From the IMG/VR virus record IMGVR_UViG_3300010401_000039, positions 1 to 59,731 of that record: 59,731 nt of DNA. One strand, written 5' to 3'. How positions within the stretch are numbered: position 1 is the first letter of the stretch; the number at the start of each line of letters is the position of its first letter. The notes under the pieces are model-generated. The model saw nothing but the letters and a program-made list of their open reading frames with translations, did not search any database and was not told where the DNA came from. The position numbers and the translations under genes are program-made. This document shows, piece after piece, positions 1,965 through 32,364 of the stretch. The DNA comes from a virus.

Positions 1965-2233
1965 GCGCCCTCGTCCCTTCGCCGGTCGGCCAGTTCGTCG
2001 GCGCGCCCCGCGAGCGCGTCGGCCTCCTGCTCCTGCGCCATGTCAAGGACGGTGCCCGCGTCAATGGGCGCGTCGCAGTGCGAGCACTGGGCGGGTTCGA
2101 TGGTGCCGCCTTCGGAAAGGTTGCAACGCTCTGGCGGGCCGCTGACGCGAGCAGGCACGTAGGCGTAGGCGGTGACGGAGGTGGAGCGGTCGCAGCGCGG
2201 GCAGCACCAGATGACGGTGGTGGATTTGTTCAT
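1961..2233 (-). CDS. small zinc-ribbon-like protein
   Basis: 90 residues with two Cys pairs, CCPRC near residue 10 and CSHCD near residue 52, spaced as in a zinc ribbon, followed by an acidic/Ala-rich helix. Start overlaps the HNH gene's stop (ATGA). Probably a small nucleic-acid- or protein-binding phage protein; exact role unknown. Confidence 0.6.
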   Translation of the reverse strand: MNKSTTVIWCCPRCDRSTSVTAYAYVPARVSGPPERCNLSEGGTIEPAQCSHCDAPIDAGTVLDMAQEQEADALAGRADELADRRRDEGA

Positions 2234-2724
2234 AGCAGGCCAAGCATCGCGTTGGTGCGGGCGAACTCACCGAATCCCGCCACCGCAGTTCGGTCGTAAG
2301 CGGCAGCGGCTTCTTCGGGCGTCAAAAAGCAACCAATGTGCTGCGTCTTGCCGTGCACTCGTATCATCGCGAGCCAATGCCCATTTCGCTTGTCGAGATG
2401 GACGCCTTTGAAGCCTGACGTGTTCCGCGAATTCTTGCGACTGTTACCGCGGTTCAGCCAGTGCGGGCATAGCCGAAGGTTATCGCGCCAATTGTGTAAG
2501 CCGTCGCCGTCTTTGTGATCCACCGTCAGGCCCTCAGGCGCGTTCATTATCAAGCGGTGCATCCACACGTTTCGGCGCAAATCACGTTCGCCCACTTTAT
2601 AGACGGCGTACCAGGTATCGGTGTGCGGCGATTTGTGCGCCACCCATCGGAATTCTCGCAGCCATTCGTAGTCGGCGGAGTCAACGATGGCGACTTGCCC
2701 ACGCGTCAGCGGTATTTCTTTCAT
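2230..2724 (-). CDS. HNH homing endonuclease with AP2 DNA-binding domain
   Basis: 164 residues. N-terminal MKEIPLTRGQVAIVDSADYE is the module typical of free-standing phage HNH_3 enzymes. The HNH core lies near residues 60-95 (WMHRLI ... VDHKDGDGLHN ... NLRLC). An AP2 domain follows (SGFKGV ... W-A-I-R ... AAAAYDRTA). Start set at the ATG overlapping the polymerase stop (ATGA) rather than an upstream in-frame codon, because a second copy at 28320-28826 begins with the same MKEIPLT. It sits directly downstream of the polymerase gene, so the polymerase locus is a likely homing target. Both flanks keep 4-bp overlaps. Confidence 0.9.
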   Translation of the reverse strand: MKEIPLTRGQVAIVDSADYEWLREFRWVAHKSPHTDTWYAVYKVGERDLRRNVWMHRLIMNAPEGLTVDHKDGDGLHNWRDNLRLCPHWLNRGNSRKNSRNTSGFKGVHLDKRNGHWLAMIRVHGKTQHIGCFLTPEEAAAAYDRTAVAGFGEFARTNAMLGLL

Positions 2725-4118
2725 AGCGGTGAGAGTTCGCCCCATGATGGCCCTGTCATAGCCTCAAAGGGAATCGTAAACGTAGTCCCCGCCACAGTAA
2801 TCGGGTTGGCAAACCATACCGGAATGCGCTCACGCACCCAATCGCGTCGGTCATGCGGTGCTTGAAACAGGACGCTATCATGGACGGTCAAGAGCGGTCG
2901 GGCAACGCGCTTGCCATCAGGGCACAGGTTTTGCGGGTCATTCCACAGCTTCAACAGGGCGAGGTTACAGCAATATGCTGTGTTGGCGGCGGGACAGAAC
3001 GGCAGTGCATCCTTGATTGTTTTGTGGTCCTGCTTATTACCAAAAAAATCTCGCTTGAGTCCGCTGGCCGCGATGAGGAAGCCGTCGCGTTGGAGCAGCA
3101 TCTTGGTTCGCTCCTGCCAACGTCGCACCCCCGGATAGCGCAGGAAATAAAGGTTCTGGAGACGCTTACACTGCGCGGCTGTGACGGTAGCGAGGGTGCC
3201 TTCGCCAGCCTCCCAAGAATCGCGCAAGACGGTCTCGGCCATCTTCACGTCGCCCTCGCCATAGTTGCTGCCGTGGCAGGCTTTCTTCGAGGTATCATAT
3301 AACCAATCTTTGGGCAGCGTCTTGCAACGGGCGAGCAGGGCTTCGCGCGGCAAGCGGTTGGCTGACTCGCCGTCGAGGTACAGAGCAGACAGCGCCTTGG
3401 CGGGCTTGAGACCAGCCAGCAGATCGTCCCACATGGTCGGATCGCCGAGCGCAAGACACTCTGCGGCGACGGTCCAAGTGTCAGCGCCGGCAAGGTCAAC
3501 TTGGTAGAAGTCGTGCCCTGGATCGGCGAGGAACAAGTGACGATGGCGCTCAGGGGTACTATGCAGAGCGTACCCGCTGCCGGTATTGCTCGCACCGCAC
3601 GAGACGCGGCCAACCTCGGTGCCCGCGATGTTGATGGACATGCGCAGGCGACCATCTTTGTCGAGCTTGCACCGGAGCGTTTTGAGTTGCGTCAGGCGGT
3701 CGCTCAGGCGCAGGCACAATTCGAGGCGCTTGTCCCGCGTCTGCCGGAAGGTAGCGAGCAGGGCATCGGCACTACGCGACAGTCGGTCAGTGTTTTTAGC
3801 GCCTTCTTTGATAAATCTACGCGGGAAGCCCCAGCCGTCCGGTGGCGGGTCGTAGAGTTTGGCAAGCAGGGCGGGCGAGTTGGTCTTGAGGTGGCGGTCG
3901 AGGAGCGTGTTCAATTCGCCCTTCTCCGCGTCCGTCAGCACGCCCTGTTGCGCCAACGCGACGATCCGCGCGGCGACGCTCCGTGGGCCAGCGGCCTCAG
4001 CGCCGTGCTGAGGCGGAGCCGACGCCGCCACCAAGCCCGCATTGGATTGCCGTACGACTACGGACGACGAACAAGGCGGCTGCCGCGTCGGCTCCTCAAA
4101 GAGTGTGGGCTGGGTCAT
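2721..4118 (-). CDS. family A DNA polymerase, palm/fingers half of a split enzyme
   Basis: 465 residues, about half the usual length, carrying only the polymerase domain. It shows a thumb-palm NSP-like motif (residues 80-82), a TGR-like EVGRVSC near 168-174, motif A with catalytic Asp 208 (YQVDLAGADTW), motif B KKACHGSNYG with Lys 278/279 and Tyr 286, and motif C with His 413-Asp 414 (TVHDSV). The 3'-5' exonuclease and the start of the thumb are in a separate gene (5402-6871), with a methyltransferase between. Residues 1-60 are Pro/Ala-rich and look like an added linker. Presumably replicates phage DNA together with the upstream half. Overlaps its neighbours by ATGA at both ends. Confidence 0.9.
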   Translation of the reverse strand: MTQPTLFEEPTRQPPCSSSVVVRQSNAGLVAASAPPQHGAEAAGPRSVAARIVALAQQGVLTDAEKGELNTLLDRHLKTNSPALLAKLYDPPPDGWGFPRRFIKEGAKNTDRLSRSADALLATFRQTRDKRLELCLRLSDRLTQLKTLRCKLDKDGRLRMSINIAGTEVGRVSCGASNTGSGYALHSTPERHRHLFLADPGHDFYQVDLAGADTWTVAAECLALGDPTMWDDLLAGLKPAKALSALYLDGESANRLPREALLARCKTLPKDWLYDTSKKACHGSNYGEGDVKMAETVLRDSWEAGEGTLATVTAAQCKRLQNLYFLRYPGVRRWQERTKMLLQRDGFLIAASGLKRDFFGNKQDHKTIKDALPFCPAANTAYCCNLALLKLWNDPQNLCPDGKRVARPLLTVHDSVLFQAPHDRRDWVRERIPVWFANPITVAGTTFTIPFEAMTGPSWGELSPL

Positions 4119-5290
4119 GCAAGAGTGCTCACCAGTTCAATGCGTCGGCCAATCCAGCGCATGACAGGCACAGCCATTGAGTTCCCAAGCGCCCGGGAGC
4201 GCGGCCCGTCGCAGGCGGGTTTTCCGCGATAGGGAATGAGCGTGTAATCGTCGGGGAAACCGAATAGGCGCTCGACTTCGCGGGGGGTCAGGCGTCGGAC
4301 TGACATGCCGCTTCTCACTCGCGTTCCAACCGGATCGTGTCCTGGGCCATTCGCCCTCAAAGCCCCAGCGGTCTCGTACTCTCGAACCCCAGTTTGAGCT
4401 TCCTGAAAGGCCACAGCTATCAATGGCACGCTGCGCCCGGTTCCGTCCTCGCTGGCGTCATGTCCTTCGGCGGTCAGACTGTGCGCGACGATGGTTCCGC
4501 CTTGTTGGGCCCGTAACCAGGAGGCATCCTGACAACGCGCTATTTCGGCCTTGTTCGCCGCTTTTGAATCACCGTCACCGAGCATCGCGCATGAGTTGAA
4601 GCTCTGCAAATTGTAGGCTTGGCTTCCAGATACTTCGATCAACGCCCCGTCGCATTCGGCGTCTGTGCCGAGTCCGCCACCGCCTTGAGTGCGCGCGCTA
4701 ATGCTTGGGGCAGTTCCTTGCCCCGTTTCTCGGCTCGGCGGAGGATTCCAGCGCAGGCGCGGGGCGTCAAAAAGAACCGCTGCGGCACACTGCCAGCGTC
4801 CTCCAGCACATCCGACAACGAACACACGCTCGCGTCGTTGGGCCAGACCGAAGTATTGAGCGTCCAGAACGCGGTAGGCGAACCCATACCCCCGCTTTGC
4901 CAACCCGCCAAGAAAGGAGCCGAAAGCTCGTCCGCCATCAATGGACAGCACGCCGGGGACATTCTCCCAAACAACCCAGGCGGGAGCATAGCGGCCAACG
5001 ATGTCCAGAAATCGCATGGTAAGCCCGCCACGGTCGCCAGCCATTCCTGCTCGCTGGCCGGCGACGGAGAAGTCTTGGCAGGGAGTCCCGCCCACGAGAA
5101 CGTCGATTGGTTGCTGTGGCCATTGTGCATAAGCGTTCAAGTCGCCGTAGTTTGGCACGGCAGAATAGTAATGCTTCAGAAGCGCACAAGGAAACTTATC
5201 AATCTCGGCGATGAAGGCGCATCGCCAGCCAAGCGGCTCCCAAGCCACGCTCGCCGCTTCTATACCGCTGCACACGCTTCCAAAGGTCAT
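4115..5290 (-). CDS. dcm: DNA cytosine-5 methyltransferase (Dcm type)
   Basis: 391 residues with the motifs in order: I FGSVCSGIEA (3-12), IV GGTPCQDFS with catalytic Cys 71, VI WENV (~108-111), VIII QRRERVF, a variable target-recognition region, IX RRLTPREVERLFGFPDDY and X GNSMAVPVM near the C-terminus. It transfers a methyl group from S-adenosylmethionine to C5 of cytosine, likely protecting phage DNA from host restriction. No cognate restriction enzyme is nearby. An in-frame TAA two codons upstream fixes the ATG. It lies between the two halves of the split polymerase, with a 111-bp gap upstream holding only tiny frames. Confidence 0.95.
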   Translation of the reverse strand: MTFGSVCSGIEAASVAWEPLGWRCAFIAEIDKFPCALLKHYYSAVPNYGDLNAYAQWPQQPIDVLVGGTPCQDFSVAGQRAGMAGDRGGLTMRFLDIVGRYAPAWVVWENVPGVLSIDGGRAFGSFLGGLAKRGYGFAYRVLDAQYFGLAQRRERVFVVGCAGGRWQCAAAVLFDAPRLRWNPPPSRETGQGTAPSISARTQGGGGLGTDAECDGALIEVSGSQAYNLQSFNSCAMLGDGDSKAANKAEIARCQDASWLRAQQGGTIVAHSLTAEGHDASEDGTGRSVPLIAVAFQEAQTGVREYETAGALRANGPGHDPVGTRVRSGMSVRRLTPREVERLFGFPDDYTLIPYRGKPACDGPRSRALGNSMAVPVMRWIGRRIELVSTLA

Positions 5291-5401
5291 ACGTTAAAGG
5301 AGGGTCGCCACGGTCACCGCTTTGTCTGTCGGTTTTGTAGCCCGTAATGGCTCACTGCGCAACGGTGCTGTCTGTGGCGCACCCTCCAAAGGTGGGATGG
5401 G

Positions 5402-6871
5402 TCATAACGCTGCCCGCATGGTAGGCTTGGCATGCTCTAAAATCGACTCCCACGTTGAGCACTTGTCCCACGCTTTTTTGAACGCGACGGCCTCGACCAC
5501 TTCGCGGAAGCTGGGCGGCGCGATGCCCGCAAGCTGATCGAGCGACCCCTGCGCCTCGTACACCTCAGCCTGGATTTGCGCCACCATCGCGTCTCTCGCG
5601 GCGACGTCATACGACATGCCCTCGTGCATCATCTCAAGGCACGGCTCAAGCAGGGCGATTTGATGCTGATAATAGCCGCGCTGCGCATCGCTGAACAAGG
5701 GCTGCATGGCCTGCCAGCACTCCAATGTCCGCATGCTGTCTTGGGCATTGTAGAAGTCGCGATCAGCCTGCACCGGCTCACGGCCATAGACGCCCCAGTC
5801 GGTGCTACTGCCCCAGTAAGCGCCGCGCGTGAGCAGCGACGCGACGACGCTCAAGTCCTTGAGCAGTTCGGGGTAGAGCGTGTGCCAAGCGAACATGGTG
5901 TCTTCGAGATTGCGCAGGCGATGCCCGTGCAGCCAGCGATGGACGAACGCCTCGTAAGCGCCGCTGTGAGCAACTTTGCACACAACCTCGTCTTCAAGCA
6001 CGTCGCCCACGGCACGAAGCAGGCGGGCTTCGTCGCTGTCGGACCACAGGTGCGACCAATCGAGGCCGCGTAATGGCACGCTGAGCGCAGCGGTGGACGT
6101 TGTGGCAAAGGATAAGACGGTGATTCCGCTGGTGGCATAGCCTTCAATGTCGAAGCCGACGGGCTGGCGGGCGTCGCGAATGGCTTGTAGCAGGGCGCAG
6201 GCTTCGTCCGCGTTTTGTGGCTGGTACATTGTACGTACCGGCAGCGCCAGCGCGGGCGAGGCGGCTTCGGCGACGGCACGCTTTACGTCTTCGCGAAGCA
6301 AGGCGAGTTGGGACGGTTCTCGCAGGATGGCGGCTGGATGCAGTGCTGCGACCACCTTGACGCGCATGCTGTCAAGTTCGCCTTCAAAGATTGAGCCTCG
6401 CCAATTGCTTACGAGATGGCCGTCGCCCAAGAAGGAACGCAGCGCCAAGTTGCCAAGGACGAGGACGCAATTTGGAGCGAACGCTTCGAGGTCAATGGCG
6501 AGGCGCGGCAGCAGCGGGCGCACGTAGTCGATGGTCTTTTCGTGCTCGGCGAGCGGCCTGCGGGAAACGTTGGCGACGAGTACGCGTTCGCGAGGCAGGC
6601 CCGCAGCTTTGAGCAGGTCATTGAGCAGCCTGCCCGACTCGCCGACCATAGGTGTCGGGCATGGCTCGAAGCGCTGACTGCCGCACCAAACGCAGCGATC
6701 ACGGCGGGCGAGTTGCTTGTTACTCCAGTGGTCAAGCGCGAAGCCGTGGCCGTTGTGGCAGATGCACCAGCTTACCTCCTCCACGGCCGGCGATTCTGCA
6801 CAGACGGCGAGCCGCACCGCGCCGGGGTCAACGGCGGGCGGTTGATTTGGCACCAGCACGTCGAAATTCAT
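5402..6871 (-). CDS. uracil-DNA glycosylase-like domain fused to 3'-5' exonuclease (N-terminal half of split family A polymerase)
   Basis: 489 residues from ATG 6871 (an in-frame TTG lies ten codons upstream). Residues ~20-200 are a family 4-like uracil glycosylase fold: AESPAVEE, then after a Cys-rich insert PMVGESGRLL, LVLGNLALRSFLG and LHPAAILRE with His 178. The insert (residues ~36-71, CICH ... CVWCGSQRFEPC) looks like a zinc ribbon or an iron-sulphur ligand set. Residues ~235-390 are a DEDD exonuclease: Asp 241/Glu 243 in GFDIEG, Asp 324 in LEDTMF, Asp 378 in YNAQDS. Residues 395-450 match the start of the polymerase thumb. It ends where the 2721-4118 protein would continue. UDG-polymerase fusions are known from some phages; the split is the odd part. 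Confidence 0.85.
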   Translation of the reverse strand: MNFDVLVPNQPPAVDPGAVRLAVCAESPAVEEVSWCICHNGHGFALDHWSNKQLARRDRCVWCGSQRFEPCPTPMVGESGRLLNDLLKAAGLPRERVLVANVSRRPLAEHEKTIDYVRPLLPRLAIDLEAFAPNCVLVLGNLALRSFLGDGHLVSNWRGSIFEGELDSMRVKVVAALHPAAILREPSQLALLREDVKRAVAEAASPALALPVRTMYQPQNADEACALLQAIRDARQPVGFDIEGYATSGITVLSFATTSTAALSVPLRGLDWSHLWSDSDEARLLRAVGDVLEDEVVCKVAHSGAYEAFVHRWLHGHRLRNLEDTMFAWHTLYPELLKDLSVVASLLTRGAYWGSSTDWGVYGREPVQADRDFYNAQDSMRTLECWQAMQPLFSDAQRGYYQHQIALLEPCLEMMHEGMSYDVAARDAMVAQIQAEVYEAQGSLDQLAGIAPPSFREVVEAVAFKKAWDKCSTWESILEHAKPTMRAAL

Positions 6872-8841: not shown

Positions 8842-9291
8842 CTAGGCGGGCTGCACGCGGTTGAAGGCTTTAGCGTCACTGAAGCCCTTTTTGACGGCGA
8901 ACTCGACGAGCAACGGCTTGCCCTTGAGCGCCGTCCAGCCACCACGAGCGTCGATGGCGGTTTTGGCGTTCTCTTTGCTGGTGCGTTCGAGGCCAAGGAC
9001 GGCCAGCGCCAACTCACGCACGCTCGCCTTCCACTCGTCCTCGCGCCCTTCCCACTTGTTAAGGCTAATCATGGTGGGGAAGCCCGCCTGGACTTCGTCG
9101 CCATCCGTAGTGCGTGCCGGTTCTTCGAGCACAAGATTCACGATGGTCTTGAGCAGCGGCCCTTTGCCCGCTTCGCCGTTGTCGTCCTTGCGTGGGATGT
9201 CGCGCACGTCGCCGAGCTGGCAGCGTTTGATGCCTGCGGCGAGGGTGCGTTGCAGGGGCGTTGTGCCCCAGTCGTCATTCTGTAGTGACAT
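8842..9291 (-). CDS. conserved phage replication-operon protein of unknown function
   Basis: 149 residues. An N-terminal MSLQNDDWGTTPLQRTL is followed by a beta-rich core (IVNLVLEEP ... FPTMISLNKW) and helical parts. Position downstream of the Sak4-like ATPase and a size typical of single-strand DNA-binding or annealing partners make a recombination accessory role conceivable, but no motif proves it. A 56-bp gap separates it from the upstream gene. Confidence 0.5.
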   Translation of the reverse strand: MSLQNDDWGTTPLQRTLAAGIKRCQLGDVRDIPRKDDNGEAGKGPLLKTIVNLVLEEPARTTDGDEVQAGFPTMISLNKWEGREDEWKASVRELALAVLGLERTSKENAKTAIDARGGWTALKGKPLLVEFAVKKGFSDAKAFNRVQPA

Positions 9292-16925: not shown

Positions 16926-17579
16926 ATGCAAACCAACGAAACCCAAGCCCCGTCAACATCCACGCCAGCAACCGCTCAAACCGTTGTGCTCCTCAGCAAA
17001 GAGCATGACATTACCGCGTTTGCGTCAGATGATCCCAGTCGCTTTGTCATTCAAGGTATCCACTACAACGCGACGGCTGGCTGTGTCGAAGCAACCAACG
17101 GCAGGCAGCTTATTCGCGTGCCTGTCGAGCGGTCTGAGGACTTCCCGCCAGTGCCAGGTGCGTTTACGCCTGCTTCTGACGTGATTATCCCATCAGCGCC
17201 GTATAAAAAGGCGCTGGCTGGCATTCCCCGGTCAAAGACATTGCCGATCATTGAGAACGTCGCCTTGTCCGCCGTCAACGGCTCGAAGGTGCGACTGACA
17301 ACCAATGACTTAGACAACGAGAACAGCGTAGTTGCCAAGGCCATCGAAGGCAATTACCCCCGGCTGGACCTTGTTATTCCCACAAAACCGCCCGTGTTCA
17401 CAATCGCCTTGTCAGCTTACGAACTGCGAATCATCGCCGACTACTTCGCCCGGCACAGCGACGCCACAGCCGCCGTTACCTTCCAATTCACTGCCGACAC
17501 CGAACCCGTTCGCTTCGCTGGCACCTTGGCCAGCGGCAAACGCGCTACTGGCGTGCTCATGCCGTGCCCCCTAACCTAA
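16926..17579 (+). CDS. sliding-clamp-like protein (shortened DNA polymerase III beta type)
   Basis: 217 residues, versus about 370 for bacterial beta clamps. N-terminal ITAFASDDPSRFVIQGIHYN with a TNGRQLIRV motif, then LPIIENVALSAVNGSKVRLT, AIEGNYPRLDLVIP (cf. GKFPDYxRVIP) and C-terminal GKRATGVLMPCPL, which recalls the VMPMRL end of DnaN. About two of the usual three clamp folds appear present, so it may act as a higher multimer. It would tether the split family A polymerase. Controlled by RNA leader b. Recognition is by motif pattern only. Confidence 0.65.
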   Translation: MQTNETQAPSTSTPATAQTVVLLSKEHDITAFASDDPSRFVIQGIHYNATAGCVEATNGRQLIRVPVERSEDFPPVPGAFTPASDVIIPSAPYKKALAGIPRSKTLPIIENVALSAVNGSKVRLTTNDLDNENSVVAKAIEGNYPRLDLVIPTKPPVFTIALSAYELRIIADYFARHSDATAAVTFQFTADTEPVRFAGTLASGKRATGVLMPCPLT

Positions 17580-24248: not shown

Positions 24249-26567
24249 TTACTCCTTGTTCTTGGTCGCGCTGGCCTTCTTCGCCGCTGCCTTGGCTTCC
24301 GCTTCCGCCTTGCGCTCGATGGCGCGCACTTCGGCTGCCGTCTTGGCGTGCTGCGCTGCCGTCTCCGCCACGCCCTCCATGCCCGCAACGAACACGTCGG
24401 CACGCGTCTTTTCCATCTCGTGCGCCTGCTTCTGGCGGAACGCAGCTTCCTTTTGTGCGAGCTTCTGCTGGTCGCTGACCTGTTTGGCCTGCACCTTTGC
24501 TTGCGTGGTCGCCGCAATCGACGCCACCTTGGCCATCGTCTCCGGGTCTTGGTGCCCGTTCTGTTGCGCTGCCATTTCTTGTTGCCGTTGCGCGAACGCC
24601 TTAACCTGATTACCCAGCTTGCCCAAGAAATCGCGATACTGTTTCACGCGCTGCGCCTCGCTCTCGTCCTGCTCCAGCAAATCAATGTGCTGCGTCACGT
24701 AAGCTGCGGCATTCGTTATCCCGACCACGTCCTGCGGCATGCCCACGCCGCCGCTCTGCTCAATCTGCTGCACCTTCATGTCCATCATTCGTAGCAGCGT
24801 TTCGATAACTTCGCGGTGCGAGTCGCCTTCCTTGACTGGCATCGGCACGCCGGTCATCAGCGTCCCCCACGCAAGCGCCGCATCGAACACCGTGTCTGTG
24901 ATCTTGTTCGGCTTGATTGGCGCAAGCTCATCCGCTTCCGCCGCGCTGTCCGTCACCGCCAGCACCAACTTATGCAGCGTCCGTTGTTGCGCCGACGGCT
25001 CCATAAACTGCCGCACGCTCATCAGTTTGTCCGCGCCGGCCAACTCAAGTTGCTTGCTGCCGCCGCCCATGACGGTCTCGGCGCGTATCTCCCAGCGGTC
25101 CGAGTCCAACCACTTCTCAAGCACGCCCGCCTCGCGGCACCGCTTCTGGAACGCCTTCGCGTCCGCGTTGTGCGTGTCCTTCAGGCACAGGCGCCGACAA
25201 ATCTCGCGATACTCAAACTCCGCCTGTATGTACGCATTATTGAGCAGCGAACTGAGCAACGCGCTGGTCTGCGCCAAGAGCGCTTGCACCTCGAACTTGG
25301 TGCGCTCCTTCTCCGTCCCGCTGTCGATGTCCTGTGTGTAGCTGCTCGCGCTCTCGCCCATGTATTGCTTCAGGTTGCTGAACAGCATTTGGCTTAGCTG
25401 CGGGTCAAACTGATAACGGTCCTCGCGCTTCACAAATCCAATGCCATCGGGCAGCAGGCCGTAACGAAGGCCGAAGTGGATTTTATCGACGGCTGCGCGA
25501 TCCGCCGGGTCTTGCACTCTGAGCAGTAACAGAAAGTCTTCGTGAACCTTCGACACGAAGCGGTTCATCGTCATGTCCTGTATCTGGCATAGGTCAAATA
25601 GCAGGAATCCAAGCGACCGAATGCTGTAGAACATGAACGGCGCTTTGTGATTCGAGTCGCCGACTTGCATGTGCAAAATCTTGTCGAGCGAGTCTGTCAC
25701 CGGGCGCTTGCTCTCGTACAAAAACTCGTCGAGTTCGTTTACGGTGCCGTAGCTGTTGGTGAATTCGCGGTCCAACACGATTTGCAGGTTCCACTCGCCG
25801 GTCTCGTCATCTTGCGAGTAGAAGTCGAAGCACCATATCTTGGGCACGGCATCGGACTGCCAGTAAACGCAGTTTTGCTTGTAAAGCTCTGCGGCCTTTT
25901 CGGGATAGTTTACCCAATCGTACGCTTGGTCCGATGTGTCGTCCTTCTTTATGGCTTGCAGAACGCGCCTCACCATCTTGACGTTCCATCCCGGATCAAT
26001 GTTTTCGTCCTTGGCAATCGTCTTGCGGTAAAGTTCATACGGCGTCATTCCGCGACGCACCGAGAAGTGGGAAATCCCGTTCAAGCTAACGGGCGTATCC
26101 GTGGGGCACAGCCAATCTTCAATCGCGATGAAGTCAGGAATCAGTTGGTCCTTGTCGAACCACATCTTGATGGCTACGCCGTTGAGCATCACTGACGCGC
26201 CCGTCTCACGAATCAAGCTCCAGTACTCTCGCGAGCGCTTCAATGGTCGATTCGCCTCCTTGGTAATGATTTGCCCCCATTCTAGCGCTTTATCCACCGG
26301 GGCATCCTCAAGGGAAACGTTAAAGTAGTGCGCCGTCTTGCCAAAGGCGTTCTCGTATTGCCTTCGGGCCGTCGCGAGCAGATTTGAGCAGGTCTTGGTC
26401 GAAAAGTTGACATCCAGTTTGTTCTCCGCCATCTGCGCGTCAGTAAAAGGCGGCAACCCGTTCGCTTGATTTTGGATGAGCACGCGGTTACGCGCCCGAA
26501 TCTCGTCCGCGAGCCGCATGCTTTGAATCACCTCGCCAACTTTGGTGGCTGTTGATGTGTCGCTCAT
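24249..26567 (-). CDS. portal protein
   Basis: 772 residues, in the size range of podovirus-type portals. The N-terminal ~530 residues have the alternating beta/alpha pattern and the long central helix region expected of portals (e.g. DSGTEKERTKFEVQALLAQT near the stem). The C-terminal ~130 residues are a Gln/Ala/Lys/Glu coiled coil (EKTRADVFVAGMEGVAETAA). Assigned from size, pattern and the terminase three genes upstream. Start ATG overlaps the HNH stop. The dodecameric portal sits at one capsid vertex and is the DNA channel. Confidence 0.75.
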   Translation of the reverse strand: MSDTSTATKVGEVIQSMRLADEIRARNRVLIQNQANGLPPFTDAQMAENKLDVNFSTKTCSNLLATARRQYENAFGKTAHYFNVSLEDAPVDKALEWGQIITKEANRPLKRSREYWSLIRETGASVMLNGVAIKMWFDKDQLIPDFIAIEDWLCPTDTPVSLNGISHFSVRRGMTPYELYRKTIAKDENIDPGWNVKMVRRVLQAIKKDDTSDQAYDWVNYPEKAAELYKQNCVYWQSDAVPKIWCFDFYSQDDETGEWNLQIVLDREFTNSYGTVNELDEFLYESKRPVTDSLDKILHMQVGDSNHKAPFMFYSIRSLGFLLFDLCQIQDMTMNRFVSKVHEDFLLLLRVQDPADRAAVDKIHFGLRYGLLPDGIGFVKREDRYQFDPQLSQMLFSNLKQYMGESASSYTQDIDSGTEKERTKFEVQALLAQTSALLSSLLNNAYIQAEFEYREICRRLCLKDTHNADAKAFQKRCREAGVLEKWLDSDRWEIRAETVMGGGSKQLELAGADKLMSVRQFMEPSAQQRTLHKLVLAVTDSAAEADELAPIKPNKITDTVFDAALAWGTLMTGVPMPVKEGDSHREVIETLLRMMDMKVQQIEQSGGVGMPQDVVGITNAAAYVTQHIDLLEQDESEAQRVKQYRDFLGKLGNQVKAFAQRQQEMAAQQNGHQDPETMAKVASIAATTQAKVQAKQVSDQQKLAQKEAAFRQKQAHEMEKTRADVFVAGMEGVAETAAQHAKTAAEVRAIERKAEAEAKAAAKKASATKNKE

Positions 26568-27214
26568 AGATTCAAGAGTTGTTGTGCTCCACGGTAAGCC
26601 GCCCACTCAATTAGCGATTTGGCACCTTTGCTAAGATTGCAAGGTCCGCAGGAAACGCACAGATTTTCGACTGCGTGCAGTCCGCCCTTAGAAAGCGCGA
26701 TGATGTGGTCGAAGTGAATGGTGCGTGTAGAAACTCTCTCTTGGCAGTAGTAGCAGGTTGCAAGGGGCTTTGCCTTTATGCTCCGCACGAAGGCTATAAT
26801 GCCTTGCATGTTGATTGTGGCCGCTTTCTTTAACGCGTTTCGCTTTTGCACGCGGGCGAAACTCTCTGCTTTGTGCCCTTTGTAATAGGCAACGCCCTGC
26901 TCACGCAGCTTTTCTCGGTTGGCTTCTCTGTAAACGATGCCTCGCGATTGCCTCTTTTGTTTGTGCTGCTCTAGTTTGTGAGGGTCGGCTTTTATTACGT
27001 CACGCGCCAAAGCTGCCTGCTGTTTTGCATGCTCCTGGTTTGCCTTGTAATATGCCGCGCCTCGTCGAAGTCTGCGCTCCCTGTTTTTTGTGTGGTATTC
27101 GGCTTGGTAACGGCGTTGCTTCTCGATGACTTCGGCTTTCTGCGCCTCGGTCATGGATTGCCAGCGACGGCGACGATACTCCATCTTTCTTTGGCTCTGC
27201 TGCGTGGCGCTCAT
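26564..27214 (-). CDS. HNH endonuclease
   Basis: 216 residues. C-terminal HNH: CYYCQERVSTRTIHFDHIIA ... NLCVSCGPCNLSKG, with two CxxC zinc pairs. The N-terminal ~140 residues are basic, Tyr/Gln-rich repeats (AAYYKAN, VAYYKGHKA) likely gripping DNA. Inserted between the glycosyltransferase-like and portal genes with ATGA overlaps on both sides; a free-standing homing enzyme by context. Confidence 0.85.
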   Translation of the reverse strand: MSATQQSQRKMEYRRRRWQSMTEAQKAEVIEKQRRYQAEYHTKNRERRLRRGAAYYKANQEHAKQQAALARDVIKADPHKLEQHKQKRQSRGIVYREANREKLREQGVAYYKGHKAESFARVQKRNALKKAATINMQGIIAFVRSIKAKPLATCYYCQERVSTRTIHFDHIIALSKGGLHAVENLCVSCGPCNLSKGAKSLIEWAAYRGAQQLLNL

Positions 27215-28323
27215 ATCACAGCCATCGGCTCACGCTGTTTGGTCGCCTGTTGCTGCGCCTTGCGCTTCGCCTCCTCCTGGTATTCCTTGCTGCGTTGTGC
27301 GGCGGATTTGCGGCGTTCGGCGAGTGTTGCGTCGCCGCCTTTGAAGTTCGGGTTCGCCTCGCCGGGCTTGCCCACGACCGCTTCGCCTTCCTGCGTCGGT
27401 GCAGGCTCCGTTGCCGTCGGCAACGCCTTAGGTGCTTCGATCAGCCCCGCTTCCAGCGCCTTGTCCAGCACGTATGCGCTCGCTCCGGTTGGCTTCAGCG
27501 CCTCTACCGCCAGCGCCTTCCTGTGCTCCAAGCCGACGCGCCACATCGTCAGAAAGTCCTCCGTCTCTTTCACCCGGTGGAAGATTGCCGCCTCGCGCTT
27601 GATGAAGTCCAACGTCACCACGTTCGCCGGGTCCGCCTCCGTCCGCAGCGTCTTGAACACAGGCGGCGTGCTGTAAGCCGTCCCCCAATGGCTCTGTATC
27701 AGCGGCGTGTGATGCGCCCGCGGCGTCAGCGTGTCCGCGAAGGTCATATCCCACGCGCCCACTGCGGGTGCCTCGCGCTGTCCCGGCCGGCGCACCGGAC
27801 TCGTCGGCCCGGTGAACTTCGCTTCCTGCCATCGCTTGCTGAGCAGTCCGAACAAATCCTGCGGATAAACCGCGATGCCGCTCACGTATCGCTTTGGCAA
27901 ACCTTCCGGCGCGTCTGGGTTGTCAATCACATGCCCCATCAGCGGCCGCGGGCATAGGCGATACGCGCCCGCCAAATCATCCAGCCAGCCCGCTCGCAGC
28001 GGCACGCAATCCGGCTCCACCCACAGCCACGGCAACTTGTAGCCCTCGTAAATCTGCCGCGCCACCGCCCGAAACATCAGGTTCGCTGCCAGTGGCCAGC
28101 CCTTCGCGCCTGTCTGTATAATCATTGCCCGCACGCTATGGAATGCCGGTCGCGCCACATCCAGAAGCGCCTTCACGCGCTCCTGCGGGATGCCCGCGTC
28201 CGCGCCCACCAACAGGCTGTGCTCGCGCATTGGGCCAAGTTCTACCATCCACTTCATCAGCGTCTCGGCCTGTTCGATGTCGCCTGCGTGCGTGGGCAGC
28301 GCGACTATTAGGGGTATGCTCAT
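27211..28323 (-). CDS. glycosyltransferase-like protein (GT-A fold)
   Basis: 370 residues. N-terminal IPLIVALPTHAGDIEQAETL and LPWLWVEPDCVPLRAGWLDD (a DxD-like acidic motif) suggest a GT-A domain to about residue 250. The C-terminal ~100 residues are Glu/Lys/Ala-rich with EANPNFKGGDATLAERR. Related in style to the four glycosyltransferase-like genes at 48-51 kb. Start at the ATG overlapping the HNH stop. Substrate unknown; modification of virion or cell surface is inference. Confidence 0.6.
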   Translation of the reverse strand: MSIPLIVALPTHAGDIEQAETLMKWMVELGPMREHSLLVGADAGIPQERVKALLDVARPAFHSVRAMIIQTGAKGWPLAANLMFRAVARQIYEGYKLPWLWVEPDCVPLRAGWLDDLAGAYRLCPRPLMGHVIDNPDAPEGLPKRYVSGIAVYPQDLFGLLSKRWQEAKFTGPTSPVRRPGQREAPAVGAWDMTFADTLTPRAHHTPLIQSHWGTAYSTPPVFKTLRTEADPANVVTLDFIKREAAIFHRVKETEDFLTMWRVGLEHRKALAVEALKPTGASAYVLDKALEAGLIEAPKALPTATEPAPTQEGEAVVGKPGEANPNFKGGDATLAERRKSAAQRSKEYQEEAKRKAQQQATKQREPMAVI

Positions 28324-28826
28324 GGAGTTTGTTGGGGTTTGTACAGACACAAGGATGCGTTGGTAAGAGCGAACTCTCCGAAATGTTTGACAACTTCAGC
28401 ATCGTAACGCTTCGCGGCTTCTTCTGCTGTGTCGAAGTAACCGAAAACTATTTCTTGGCGACTAATTTGAATTCGAGCGCGCCATTTCTTCATACCTTTG
28501 TGCCAAGAAACTCCTTTGAAGCCAGATGTGCTTTTTGACGATAGTTTCTGATGTCGCACGTTTTCGGCGTTAGTCGCCAAGCTGAGATTGGATTTTTGGT
28601 TGTTTAATCCGTTGTGATCCGCGTGATGAACTTGCAATCCTTTTGGCGCGCCCATTATCAAACGGTGCATCAATACAAATCGCCGTTGCCCGGCTCTTCC
28701 GGGGTTAGTTGAAGCGTAAAGCCCCCCATTAGATTTATGGGTGTGCCATTTGTATTCTGAGATCAACGGCAAATCTTCGTCGTCAACCAAAGCAACTTGA
28801 TTTTTTGTCAGCGGGATTTCTTTCAT
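28320..28826 (-). CDS. HNH homing endonuclease with AP2 domain (second copy)
   Basis: 168 residues. MKEIPLTKNQVALVDDEDLP, HNH core LMHRLIMGAPKGLQVHHADH ... NLSLAT, AP2 domain SGFKGVSWHKGMKKWRARIQ ... AAKRYDAEVVKHFGEFA. Paralogue of the 2230-2724 gene but clearly diverged, so separate acquisitions or an old duplication. ATGA overlaps on both flanks. Confidence 0.9.
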   Translation of the reverse strand: MKEIPLTKNQVALVDDEDLPLISEYKWHTHKSNGGLYASTNPGRAGQRRFVLMHRLIMGAPKGLQVHHADHNGLNNQKSNLSLATNAENVRHQKLSSKSTSGFKGVSWHKGMKKWRARIQISRQEIVFGYFDTAEEAAKRYDAEVVKHFGEFALTNASLCLYKPQQTP

Positions 28827-29501: not shown

Positions 29502-29530
29502 CTTATCTACCCCCCGGTGCACTCCGTCAA
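29502..29530 (-). promoter_or_regulatory. internal leftward promoter before the 29494 gene
   Basis: Minus strand TTGACG (29530-29525, containing the terminase stop codon), 17-nt spacer, GATAAG (29507-29502), seven bases, GTG at 29494. Confidence 0.5.
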
Positions 29531-32364
29531 GCCGCAGTCTTGAGGCGCATGCTGGCGATGAGCTTCCTGTGCCGGTCGTTGAGTTCTTCCAGCCAGCTTT
29601 TGCCGCCCCCCTCGATGAACTTGTCAGCGCCCAGTTTGGCTATCTGCAAACCGCGTTGCCGCGCCCCTTCCACGGCCGTCGCCAGCCAGTCCGCCTCGTC
29701 CGGCGACCTGCCGATGCGCTGCTTGGTTTTGTCCTTCGGCTCCACGTCGCGCTTGTTGCCGCCGACAAAGATGAACTCCCGCATGAAGAACTCCTGGGCG
29801 ACCGACTCCGGCAACTCCCGCAACTGTTCGCTCTCCACTAGCCAGCGCACCGCGAACCAGAACTCGCTCACCCGCTTCTGGTATTCCTCGTCGGCGCGCT
29901 TCAACCTGCGCTGCTGCGTATGCTGATCCACAACGAACAGGTCCAGACGCACCGGCCTAGCGCTTGGCCTGCCTCCGAACTCCACCGGCACTGGAATTAC
30001 ATGCCCGAACACCCGCGCAAACGCTGCGCCCAGCGTCCCGCGCCCCGTCGAGTCATAGAACACGTTCTCGACCGGAATGCCCTCACGCAGGCACTCGTCG
30101 CGCACATGCTCGGCAATTTCGTCCTCCGGCTCCGCACCCCGCTTCATGCCAATCTTGATAACGTGCGGCTTCTCGACGCGCACAATCTGCTTGCCGTCCA
30201 CGTCGTCGCCGAACTCAATCCAGCCCCCGACGCACCTATCGCCTCCGTACGCCGCGTCCACGGCATAAATCTTCGTCCGGTTCACGCCCTTCCATGTCGC
30301 CTTCTCAAACGCCTTGTGAATTGTGCAAAGCTGCTTCGTCAAGACTCGCTGCGAGTCTTCGCCCGGCCGCATGATGCCCAAGCACATCGCGTTGAACTCC
30401 TCGCTATGCGGCCCGTAGAACCGCAGCGTGCTGTCAATGCGCTCTTGGTCGATCAGGAACGGGTAGTGCCGCCCGTCGCCCTCGAAGTTCGGTGAGTCTG
30501 TCCCGACGAAGTTGATGCACTTGCCCTTCGCGTACTTCGTCGCCCAAATCGTCGTCTTGGTGATGTCGCGCACGCTGCCCCAGCCCAGTTCCGGTTCGCA
30601 CGACTGGCCCATCGGCGAGTGCTCCCCGTTCACCGGGTTCGCGATTGGGATGAAGAAGAAGCGCTCGTTTTTGTCCAAGTTCGACGTTGCCCGCAAATAC
30701 GAAATATGCATGAGGCTGCATTCATCCGCCACGAGGAATACCCACTTGTTCTTGATGCCGACGAACGGTCCGATGCCCACCCAGTGCTCTCCCTTGTAGC
30801 AGTTGTGGACGATTACACCGTTGACTGAGTAGCTTGGATGTCCTGCAACTTCGAGATTGTGGACTCGATAGCCTCCTTGACCCGCGTCGTATCGTTCATC
30901 GCCTTCTTGTTTGAGAATCTCAACACGGTCCACCCAAGCTCCCTGAGTCGGCCGTCGCGGAATTTGTCCTTCGTTGCCACACTCGGAATCCGATGAATGC
31001 CGCCGTCGATTTCCACGCCTAACTTCAACGTTGGAAAAGCCACGTCCACCTTGTACCCGTGTCGTCTGCCGTCGGCCTTCAACAAGCCGCTCCTGACGTA
31101 AAGGTTCCACGTTGCGTCGGGAAACAGCTTCCAGATGATTAGTTCCTCTGGCGTCGGCATCCTGCCCTTGCGATGGTGCCGCTTGGAAATCCACTTCAGC
31201 CTGCAAGATAGACCGCAGAACCGCGTCCTGTCCTTCGCGGGCGATTCGCGCAGCGAAACAAAAGCCTTCCCACACCGCTGACAAGGCATCGTCTCCGGGC
31301 GATTGCGGCATTGCACTGAGCAGAAGTCGCGGTTGTGATGCACAGCTTTCATTGGTTGCCCGCAATTCTTGCACGCCTTCGACACTTTCTTGATGCAATC
31401 TTTGTGTGCGGCTGCCCATCGTCCCGCGCAATCCGTACCGCAGAAACGACCGGATCGGGCGTTGCTCTTGCGCCACGGGCGAAACGGCTTCTGGCAATGA
31501 GCGCAATTTTTGGGTGGTAGGAAAATGCGGCACTCGCTTGAGCAGTACTTTCGGTTGGGATAGCCCGGTCCCAAGTTCCCCTTGCAAGAGGCGCAGCGTT
31601 TCATGCGCCGAGAATACCCTGTCATAAGTCTCCAAGTCACGTACTTTCACCCATCCTCGTTGCGTAAAAAACGGATGTTCCTCTGTGCAATCTATCATTC
31701 GGCCATCCGACAAGTGAACTCGGAATGCTCGGTCAACTATTCTTGTGTGCGTCTCGGTAATGGTTCCGATGCCAGAGGCATTGAAAACCTTGTCTCCAAC
31801 GCGCAATGTTTCGATGGGCTTTGGACCGCTCGGAGTGTCAACCAAAGTGCCCGGTAAAAAACATGCAATCCCAATCACGCCGTTTCTGAAATCACGCGTG
31901 TCGCCGTCCTCGCTTCGGTCCGTGATGATGCACCGCTTATAGTCCAGCGCCACGCCCGGCAAATCGTCCCACCGCGCCTTGGCCTGTTTGTGCAGCTTCT
32001 TCACTTCGCCCAATATGCCGAGGTCCAATTTCTGCACCGTCGTCGTCGTCAGCAGTATCGTCGTCTCCTCCGGGTAAACGTAGTAATGCGACAGGACGAA
32101 CTTGCTCGCGTAATACGTCTTGCCGCAGCTGCCCGGTCCGAGCAGCCCTACCATGCCGCGCTTGCGAAACTCGACGCAATCCGTGAACTCGCGCAGCGCC
32201 AAGTCGCTCCACTTATTGTGCTCGTCCTCCCACAACAGCGAGTGCAACGCCCGATAATGCGTAAACAGGTCTTTGCCCTGCCGGATGCACCATTTCTCGA
32301 TGTCAATGGCGCGCGTGCCCGCTTTCCAATGATGCGAGTACCGCTCGAAGGTCGCCGTTGCCAT
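29527..32364 (-). CDS. terL: large terminase subunit interrupted by an intein
   Basis: 945 codons. Extein residues 1-167 and 522-945 make a 591-residue terminase. Walker A GPGSCGKT lies at 76-83, Walker B VFLVADE after the intein, and the RNase H-like nuclease acids in YAVDAAYGGDR, VFYDSTGRG and SPDEADW. The intein occupies residues 168-521: Cys 168 in IACFLPGTLV, block B CTEEHPF, and C-terminal GVIVHN followed by Cys 522. It lies between Walker A and B, so splicing is needed for packaging activity. The terminase motor drives DNA into the capsid through the portal. A nuclease gene is nested out of frame inside the intein DNA. Confidence 0.92.
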   Translation of the reverse strand: MATATFERYSHHWKAGTRAIDIEKWCIRQGKDLFTHYRALHSLLWEDEHNKWSDLALREFTDCVEFRKRGMVGLLGPGSCGKTYYASKFVLSHYYVYPEETTILLTTTTVQKLDLGILGEVKKLHKQAKARWDDLPGVALDYKRCIITDRSEDGDTRDFRNGVIGIACFLPGTLVDTPSGPKPIETLRVGDKVFNASGIGTITETHTRIVDRAFRVHLSDGRMIDCTEEHPFFTQRGWVKVRDLETYDRVFSAHETLRLLQGELGTGLSQPKVLLKRVPHFPTTQKLRSLPEAVSPVAQEQRPIRSFLRYGLRGTMGSRTQRLHQESVEGVQELRATNESCASQPRLLLSAMPQSPGDDALSAVWEGFCFAARIAREGQDAVLRSILQAEVDFQAAPSQGQDADARGTNHLEAVSRRNVEPLRQERLVEGRRQTTRVQGGRGFSNVEVRRGNRRRHSSDSECGNEGQIPRRPTQGAWVDRVEILKQEGDERYDAGQGGYRVHNLEVAGHPSYSVNGVIVHNCYKGEHWVGIGPFVGIKNKWVFLVADECSLMHISYLRATSNLDKNERFFFIPIANPVNGEHSPMGQSCEPELGWGSVRDITKTTIWATKYAKGKCINFVGTDSPNFEGDGRHYPFLIDQERIDSTLRFYGPHSEEFNAMCLGIMRPGEDSQRVLTKQLCTIHKAFEKATWKGVNRTKIYAVDAAYGGDRCVGGWIEFGDDVDGKQIVRVEKPHVIKIGMKRGAEPEDEIAEHVRDECLREGIPVENVFYDSTGRGTLGAAFARVFGHVIPVPVEFGGRPSARPVRLDLFVVDQHTQQRRLKRADEEYQKRVSEFWFAVRWLVESEQLRELPESVAQEFFMREFIFVGGNKRDVEPKDKTKQRIGRSPDEADWLATAVEGARQRGLQIAKLGADKFIEGGGKSWLEELNDRHRKLIASMRLKTAA
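30802..31863 (-). other. intein coding segment in terL (354 residues)
   Basis: Starts with CFLPGTLVDTPSGPKPIETL (block A) and DKVF; block B is DCTEEHPFFTQRGWVKVRDL; block F/G is YRVHNLEVAGHPSYSVNGVI then VHN|C. The middle, roughly residues 250-497 of the precursor, has shadow-like composition and no in-frame LAGLIDADG or HNH domain, because the DNA there encodes another protein in a different frame. Confidence 0.88.
30813..31604 (-). CDS. zinc-finger, Vsr/EDxHD-like homing endonuclease nested out of frame in the terL intein
   Basis: 263 residues from ATG 31604 (an in-frame GTG at 31640 is possible). Four CxxC zinc fingers in the first ~130 residues (CASCKGNLG, CAHCQKPF, CKNCGQPM, CQRCGKAF), then a restriction-type fold: VDVAFPTLKLGVEIDGGIHR and GWTVLRFSNKKA, as in Vsr/DUF559/EDxHD nucleases known from split inteins. 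It runs in another minus-strand frame than terL, and its last ~20 codons overlap the intein's C-terminal splicing block. This would be the homing enzyme of the intein. Confidence 0.85.
   Translation of the reverse strand: MKRCASCKGNLGPGYPNRKYCSSECRIFLPPKNCAHCQKPFRPWRKSNARSGRFCGTDCAGRWAAAHKDCIKKVSKACKNCGQPMKAVHHNRDFCSVQCRNRPETMPCQRCGKAFVSLRESPAKDRTRFCGLSCRLKWISKRHHRKGRMPTPEELIIWKLFPDATWNLYVRSGLLKADGRRHGYKVDVAFPTLKLGVEIDGGIHRIPSVATKDKFRDGRLRELGWTVLRFSNKKAMNDTTRVKEAIESTISKLQDIQATQSTV

Follow-up and report, generated by a model that had tools for sequence, protein, structure and literature searches.

The family A DNA polymerase of the virus described here is encoded by two open reading frames (ORFs) separated at the tip of the thumb, and this split very probably predates the cytosine methyltransferase gene that now lies between its halves. 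The window analyzed was the whole viral record, 59,731 bases. The account we propose, in which a split in an ancestor was followed by insertion of Dcm and HNH genes and the two chains assemble and possibly dock on a sliding clamp, seems to us, taken as a whole, fairly probable.

The genes are transcribed from the minus strand in the order UDG-exonuclease ORF, 111-bp gap, Dcm, polymerase ORF and HNH-AP2 endonuclease gene (Table 1), and each of these parts was found where a sequence-only reading of the same DNA had put it. The product of the first ORF, P0003, matched UDG and UDG family 4 profiles (E = 1.3e-12 and 2.9e-21, respectively); its exonuclease part gave a weak Pfam match (0.0037, below the cut-off). 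No Rfam intron, promoter or terminator signal was detected in the 111-bp gap. On the other side of Dcm there is no gap, since the Dcm stop and the polymerase start overlap as ATGA. The polymerase stop and the start of the HNH gene, probably at 2724 (MKEIPLT), likewise share ATGA. Many phages have methyltransferases resembling P0002, with identities of up to 47%. The N-terminus MKEIPLT of the endonuclease that follows the polymerase recurs in a second HNH-AP2 endonuclease, encoded at 28320-28826 (minus strand), and a further HNH gene is found at 26564-27214.

Table 1. Features of the split polymerase locus and of the clamp-like gene in the window
Feature	Position	Strand	Basis
UDG-like, DEDD exonuclease and thumb helix H subunit, P0003 (489 aa)	5402..6871	-	profile matches, HMM of unsplit polymerases
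Upstream ATGA-junction copy, ATGACCCATCCCAC, likely relic of polymerase start	5392..5405	-	exact-site search
Gap upstream of Dcm, 111 bp	5291..5401	-	sequence
Dcm-type cytosine-5 methyltransferase, P0002 (391 aa), complete, probable later insertion	4115..5290	-	PF00145 6e-49
Downstream junction copy, ATGACCCAGCCCAC, current polymerase start	4105..4118	-	exact-site search
Family A polymerase subunit (thumb from H1, palm, fingers), P0001 (465 aa)	2721..4118	-	PF00476 4e-9
QPTLF, candidate sliding-clamp-binding motif, P0001 residues 3-7	4098..4112	-	consensus QxxLF
NSP motif, start of thumb helix H1, P0001 residues 80-82	3873..3881	-	alignment with unsplit relatives
HNH-AP2 free-standing endonuclease, P0004 (start M8), probable later insertion	2230..2724	-	phrog_99 4e-37
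Small beta-sliding-clamp-like protein, P0005 (217 aa), possible partner	16926..17579	+	phrog_3007 1.6e-13, phrog_947 1.6e-4

Profile searches supported the earlier proposal that the two ORFs are parts of one family A polymerase, since P0003 and P0001 match different stretches of phrog_17 (profile positions 501-886 at 1.3e-20 and 917-1232 at 1.6e-20, respectively). The order UDG, exonuclease, polymerase characteristic of phrog_17 is present in the window and in a second virus, L002 (IMGVR_UViG_3300009156_000033), in both cases on two ORFs and not in a single polypeptide. Unsplit homologues, which the sequence-only reading had suggested comparing, do exist and locate the breakpoint. The UDG, exonuclease and polymerase parts form one ORF in 78 of 80 viral loci with relatives, which were the best full-length matches and hence a sample biased toward unsplit forms; one of the remaining two loci has a single in-frame stop, and the other is cut by the contig end. 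No relatives were found in bacterial genomes. Since an HMM of the unsplit proteins covers the first chain as far as model position 434, where helix H ends, and resumes around helix H1 (at position 425 in the second half of L002 or 503 in that of the window), and since only ~5 residues separate helix H from the NSP motif in unsplit proteins, the break is, by this comparison, at the thumb tip, between helices H and H1. The earlier placement in the thumb, before the NSP motif, was thus correct, but the polymerase ORF does not begin just before that motif: ~79 residues, forming a disordered tail and then a helical segment, precede it in P0001.

Both halves recur in L002 as intact neighbouring ORFs with 56-59% identity, and conservation at the three codon positions between the two phages (0.66/0.70/0.45 and 0.63/0.70/0.41 for the two halves) is of the coding type. 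Intact halves with such conservation, together with a P0001 model that has family A palm and fingers, speak against chance. We infer that the two chains most probably form one replicative polymerase by non-covalent association. Among the precedents considered, reassembly was shown for the split family B polymerase 43A/43B of T4-like phages, which co-purifies and is active (PMC2988022).

One can also imagine that the two proteins act separately, P0003 as a UDG-exonuclease repair or proofreading enzyme and P0001 as an exonuclease-less polymerase with a thumb helix of its own. An extra helical stretch of P0001 (residues 44-76) resembles helix H of P0003 in length and in some residues (shuffle p 0.02-0.2), and the HMM match of L002 begins within helix H. 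However, the likeness is slight, the break interrupts a subdomain and does not fall between domains, and the two genes are close together and in the same order in both phages. We therefore consider separate action unlikely. Duplication of helix H in both halves is not claimed, the shuffle values and an hhalign probability of 1.6% being suggestive only.

In the preferred two-chain enzyme, P0001 would provide the palm and fingers. Its AF2 model has the palm, fingers and thumb fold of family A (pLDDT 79, with much of the palm and fingers above 90), and Foldseek matched it to KlenTaq (E 4e-17, TM 0.67). Equivalents of the motif A and motif C aspartates (D705 and D882) and of the motif B lysine (K758) are present, and those of H881, R668 and Y766 are also kept. 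In contrast, the residues expected at the dNTP site are not all found, as H734A, R754Y and Q849A occur in both split phages. The R754 and Q849 equivalents, near residues 274 and 377 of P0001, are Y and A. Position 849 is Q in 40 of 40 unsplit relatives checked; R754Y is seen in 5 of the 40, and E710D also occurs among them. E710D, F762H and N845A were dropped as marks of decay, D, H and A being the rule in unsplit relatives. In the exonuclease part, the ExoII Asp is replaced by Glu in both the window phage and L002. Since the fold, the motifs and the profile match are all in place, the altered dNTP site does not exclude family A membership. Polymerase activity is likely but may be altered and, because the dNTP site is partly changed, reduced activity is possible.

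Could the polymerase be degenerating and no longer serve as the replicative enzyme? The three dNTP-site substitutions shared by both phages would speak for this. Yet both ORFs have stayed intact in two phages under coding-type codon constraint, the catalytic carboxylates and the K758 equivalent are kept, and two of the changes, R754Y and E710D, are also found in unsplit relatives. In the sequence-only reading, a separate complete polymerase elsewhere in the genome would have counted against the split; no second polymerase of family A, B or C was found in the record, which gave a single PF00476 match. Taken together, these observations make degeneration quite improbable, and a functional two-chain polymerase remains our preferred reading.

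Most of the L002 genome is colinear with the window. Its polymerase ORFs have the same break and meet directly (...CTATGA...), and Dcm and HNH are absent there. Because the same split is present without Dcm, the methyltransferase most likely entered an existing gene boundary as a later guest and did not cause the split; "split around a methyltransferase" describes the locus but does not explain it. A search of both strands of the 59.7 kb gave exactly two ATGACCCANCCCAC sites, one where the first polymerase ORF ends and one where the second starts. These sites are the two edges of the Dcm cassette, and the junction copies agree at 13 of 14 nt. Were the insertion of the methyltransferase itself to have split the polymerase gene, as the location of Dcm exactly between the halves might suggest, L002 would have had to lose Dcm and to regain ATGA exactly. 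A start junction duplicated on either side of Dcm is, on the other hand, what one expects if an existing boundary was entered, and we regard a split caused by Dcm as very improbable.

The HNH gene is also flanked by a repeat, the 8-nt GCTATGAA at 2720-2727 and 2229-2236, which is weaker than the Dcm one, as its ATGA is partly imposed. Since copies of the ATGA junction flank both genes, Dcm and HNH both look like later insertions, and insertion at coupled gene boundaries, with the boundary copied, would be the simplest account. The Dcm-polymerase junction was not found in other viral contigs; the thumb-tip breakpoint is seen in two genomes only, and the form with Dcm in one.

Reunion of the halves through an intron, an intein or frameshifting is scarcely credible: introns and inteins are known in phage polymerase genes, and there is an intein elsewhere in this genome, but the window has no Rfam match, a full Dcm ORF stands between the halves, no intein domain was matched in either half, the L002 ORFs meet at ATGA, and neither intron RNA nor an intein is found at the break. 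A 945-aa ORF at 29527-32364 (minus strand) contains an intein-like Hint domain (Pfam Intein_splicing, residues 206-521). Its L002 homologue has 591 aa and is 84% identical over the best segment, and this comparison suggests that only one of the two phages has the intein.

The history suggested by these data would begin in an ancestor common to the window phage and L002, in which a single-chain UDG-exonuclease-polymerase of the phrog_17 type broke between helices H and H1. The two ORFs would first have touched as ATGA, so that their translation was presumably coupled. Later, the Dcm cassette would have been inserted at the ATGA boundary before the polymerase gene and the HNH endonuclease after it, each insertion leaving a junction copy at both ends. 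Read in this way, the pair of genomes orders the events of gene fission: the split would come first and the cargo second. In the present enzyme, the first chain would supply UDG, the proofreading exonuclease and helix H, and the second the remaining thumb, palm and fingers, while a disordered tether bearing the QxxLF motif may attach the enzyme to host DnaN or to the phage's small clamp-like protein.

The polymerase half starts with MTQPTLFEE in the window phage and MKQPTLNFDE in L002, whose six-residue QxxLxF form (QPTLNF) we take to be a variant of the clamp motif. The bacterial clamp-binding consensus is QxxLF, with Q, L and F as anchors (PMC12309361). The motif is found once per polymerase half, at residue 3, and a QxxLF-type motif lies in the first 12 residues of one of the 514 ORFs of the two genomes. 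Residues 1-61 of P0001 are predicted to be disordered (pLDDT <50), and thus the feature expected of a clamp client, a QxxLF-type motif in a flexible region, is present. The linker behind the motif does not align between the window phage and L002; unalignable and disordered, it has the appearance of a tethered peptide.

A possible partner is P0005, which is beta-clamp-like because it shares phrog_3007 with E. coli DnaN (6.5e-24). The label of phrog_3007, RusA-like resolvase, looks wrong given the DnaN match. The P0005 model has a pLDDT of 31 and was derived from an alignment of near-identical (99%) relatives only, none beyond 99% identity having been found. Two further records, L015 and L016, carry P0005 at 99% identity, and the polymerase is absent from both; L016 begins at window position 9212 and so is uninformative on the polymerase region. 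No clamp gene was detectable in L002, from which it follows that a phage clamp is not obligatory, and L002 may use the host clamp.

Docking of the polymerase on a clamp by the candidate QPTLF tail, a five-residue motif in two sequences, is rather doubtful in our estimate. Equally tentative is the fuller proposal that the thumb-tip break became a clamp-docking arm whose new N-terminus binds a clamp, possibly the phage's miniature beta clamp. The enzyme is most likely a two-chain polymerase and is possibly clamp-tethered. If it is tethered, the arm would give a repair-type polymerase replicative processivity, and it is a testable idea that an enzyme broken in two could become more processive by way of a clamp peptide at the newly created terminus. 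A literature search on UDG-polymerase fusions with clamps returned nothing useful.

The single-chain UDG-exonuclease-family A polymerases of phrog_17 (for example, Mel-JY34, MW202489 and vir526) resemble the window enzyme in domain order and in sequence across both halves. The window enzyme differs from them in its two chains, its QxxLF tail, the extra helical stretch where the chain breaks, and a CxxxH...CxxC insertion within UDG. The latter, zinc-knuckle-like and located at about 6680-6770 (minus strand) in P0003, is common to L002 and is found neither in aligned unsplit relatives nor in Caulobacter phage Kuura. In T7 gp5, too, extra sequence is located just before thumb helix H1 and is linked to processivity: H1 spans residues 339-348, with residues of the thioredoxin-binding domain before it (PMC9198812). 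By numbering (T7 NPSS at 335), the window break corresponds to the interval preceding this helix. Unlike the window enzyme, with its chain break and candidate clamp peptide, T7 gp5 is one chain with a domain inserted at this point.

Split polymerases of T4-like phages are found with and without a mobile gene between the halves. In Aeromonas phage 44RR the split has no endonuclease, and in phage 25 the gene may have been split before the endonuclease arrived (PMC2988022). These are, however, family B enzymes with a homing endonuclease as cargo instead of a methyltransferase. Among family A enzymes, a split with a methyltransferase between the halves was considered unusual in the sequence-only reading, which overstated the case. 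A split family A polymerase has been published for the OM43 phages MEP401 and MEP402 (PMC10580990), where, as in the window, two ORFs have a gene, in that case a small one, between them. The MEP401 break lies just before motif A in the palm, and its first ORF begins at the exonuclease, without the UDG part. In Kuura and L022, UDG-exonuclease and polymerase are in separate ORFs with unrelated cargo between them (small ORFs in Kuura; in L022, an RNase HI-like gene at 3157-3678, named from sequence), but the breakpoint precedes ExoIII, within the exonuclease. The window enzyme is thus not the first split family A polymerase, and the thumb-tip position was found only in the window/L002 pair. Phage family A polymerases are thus seen to be interrupted at three distinct positions, and the cargo between the halves varies. 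In L054 (2198-4645), a UDG-exonuclease-polymerase relative is interrupted by a single in-frame stop just before ExoIII, near the Kuura breakpoint; this may reflect either a recent split or an error in sequencing.
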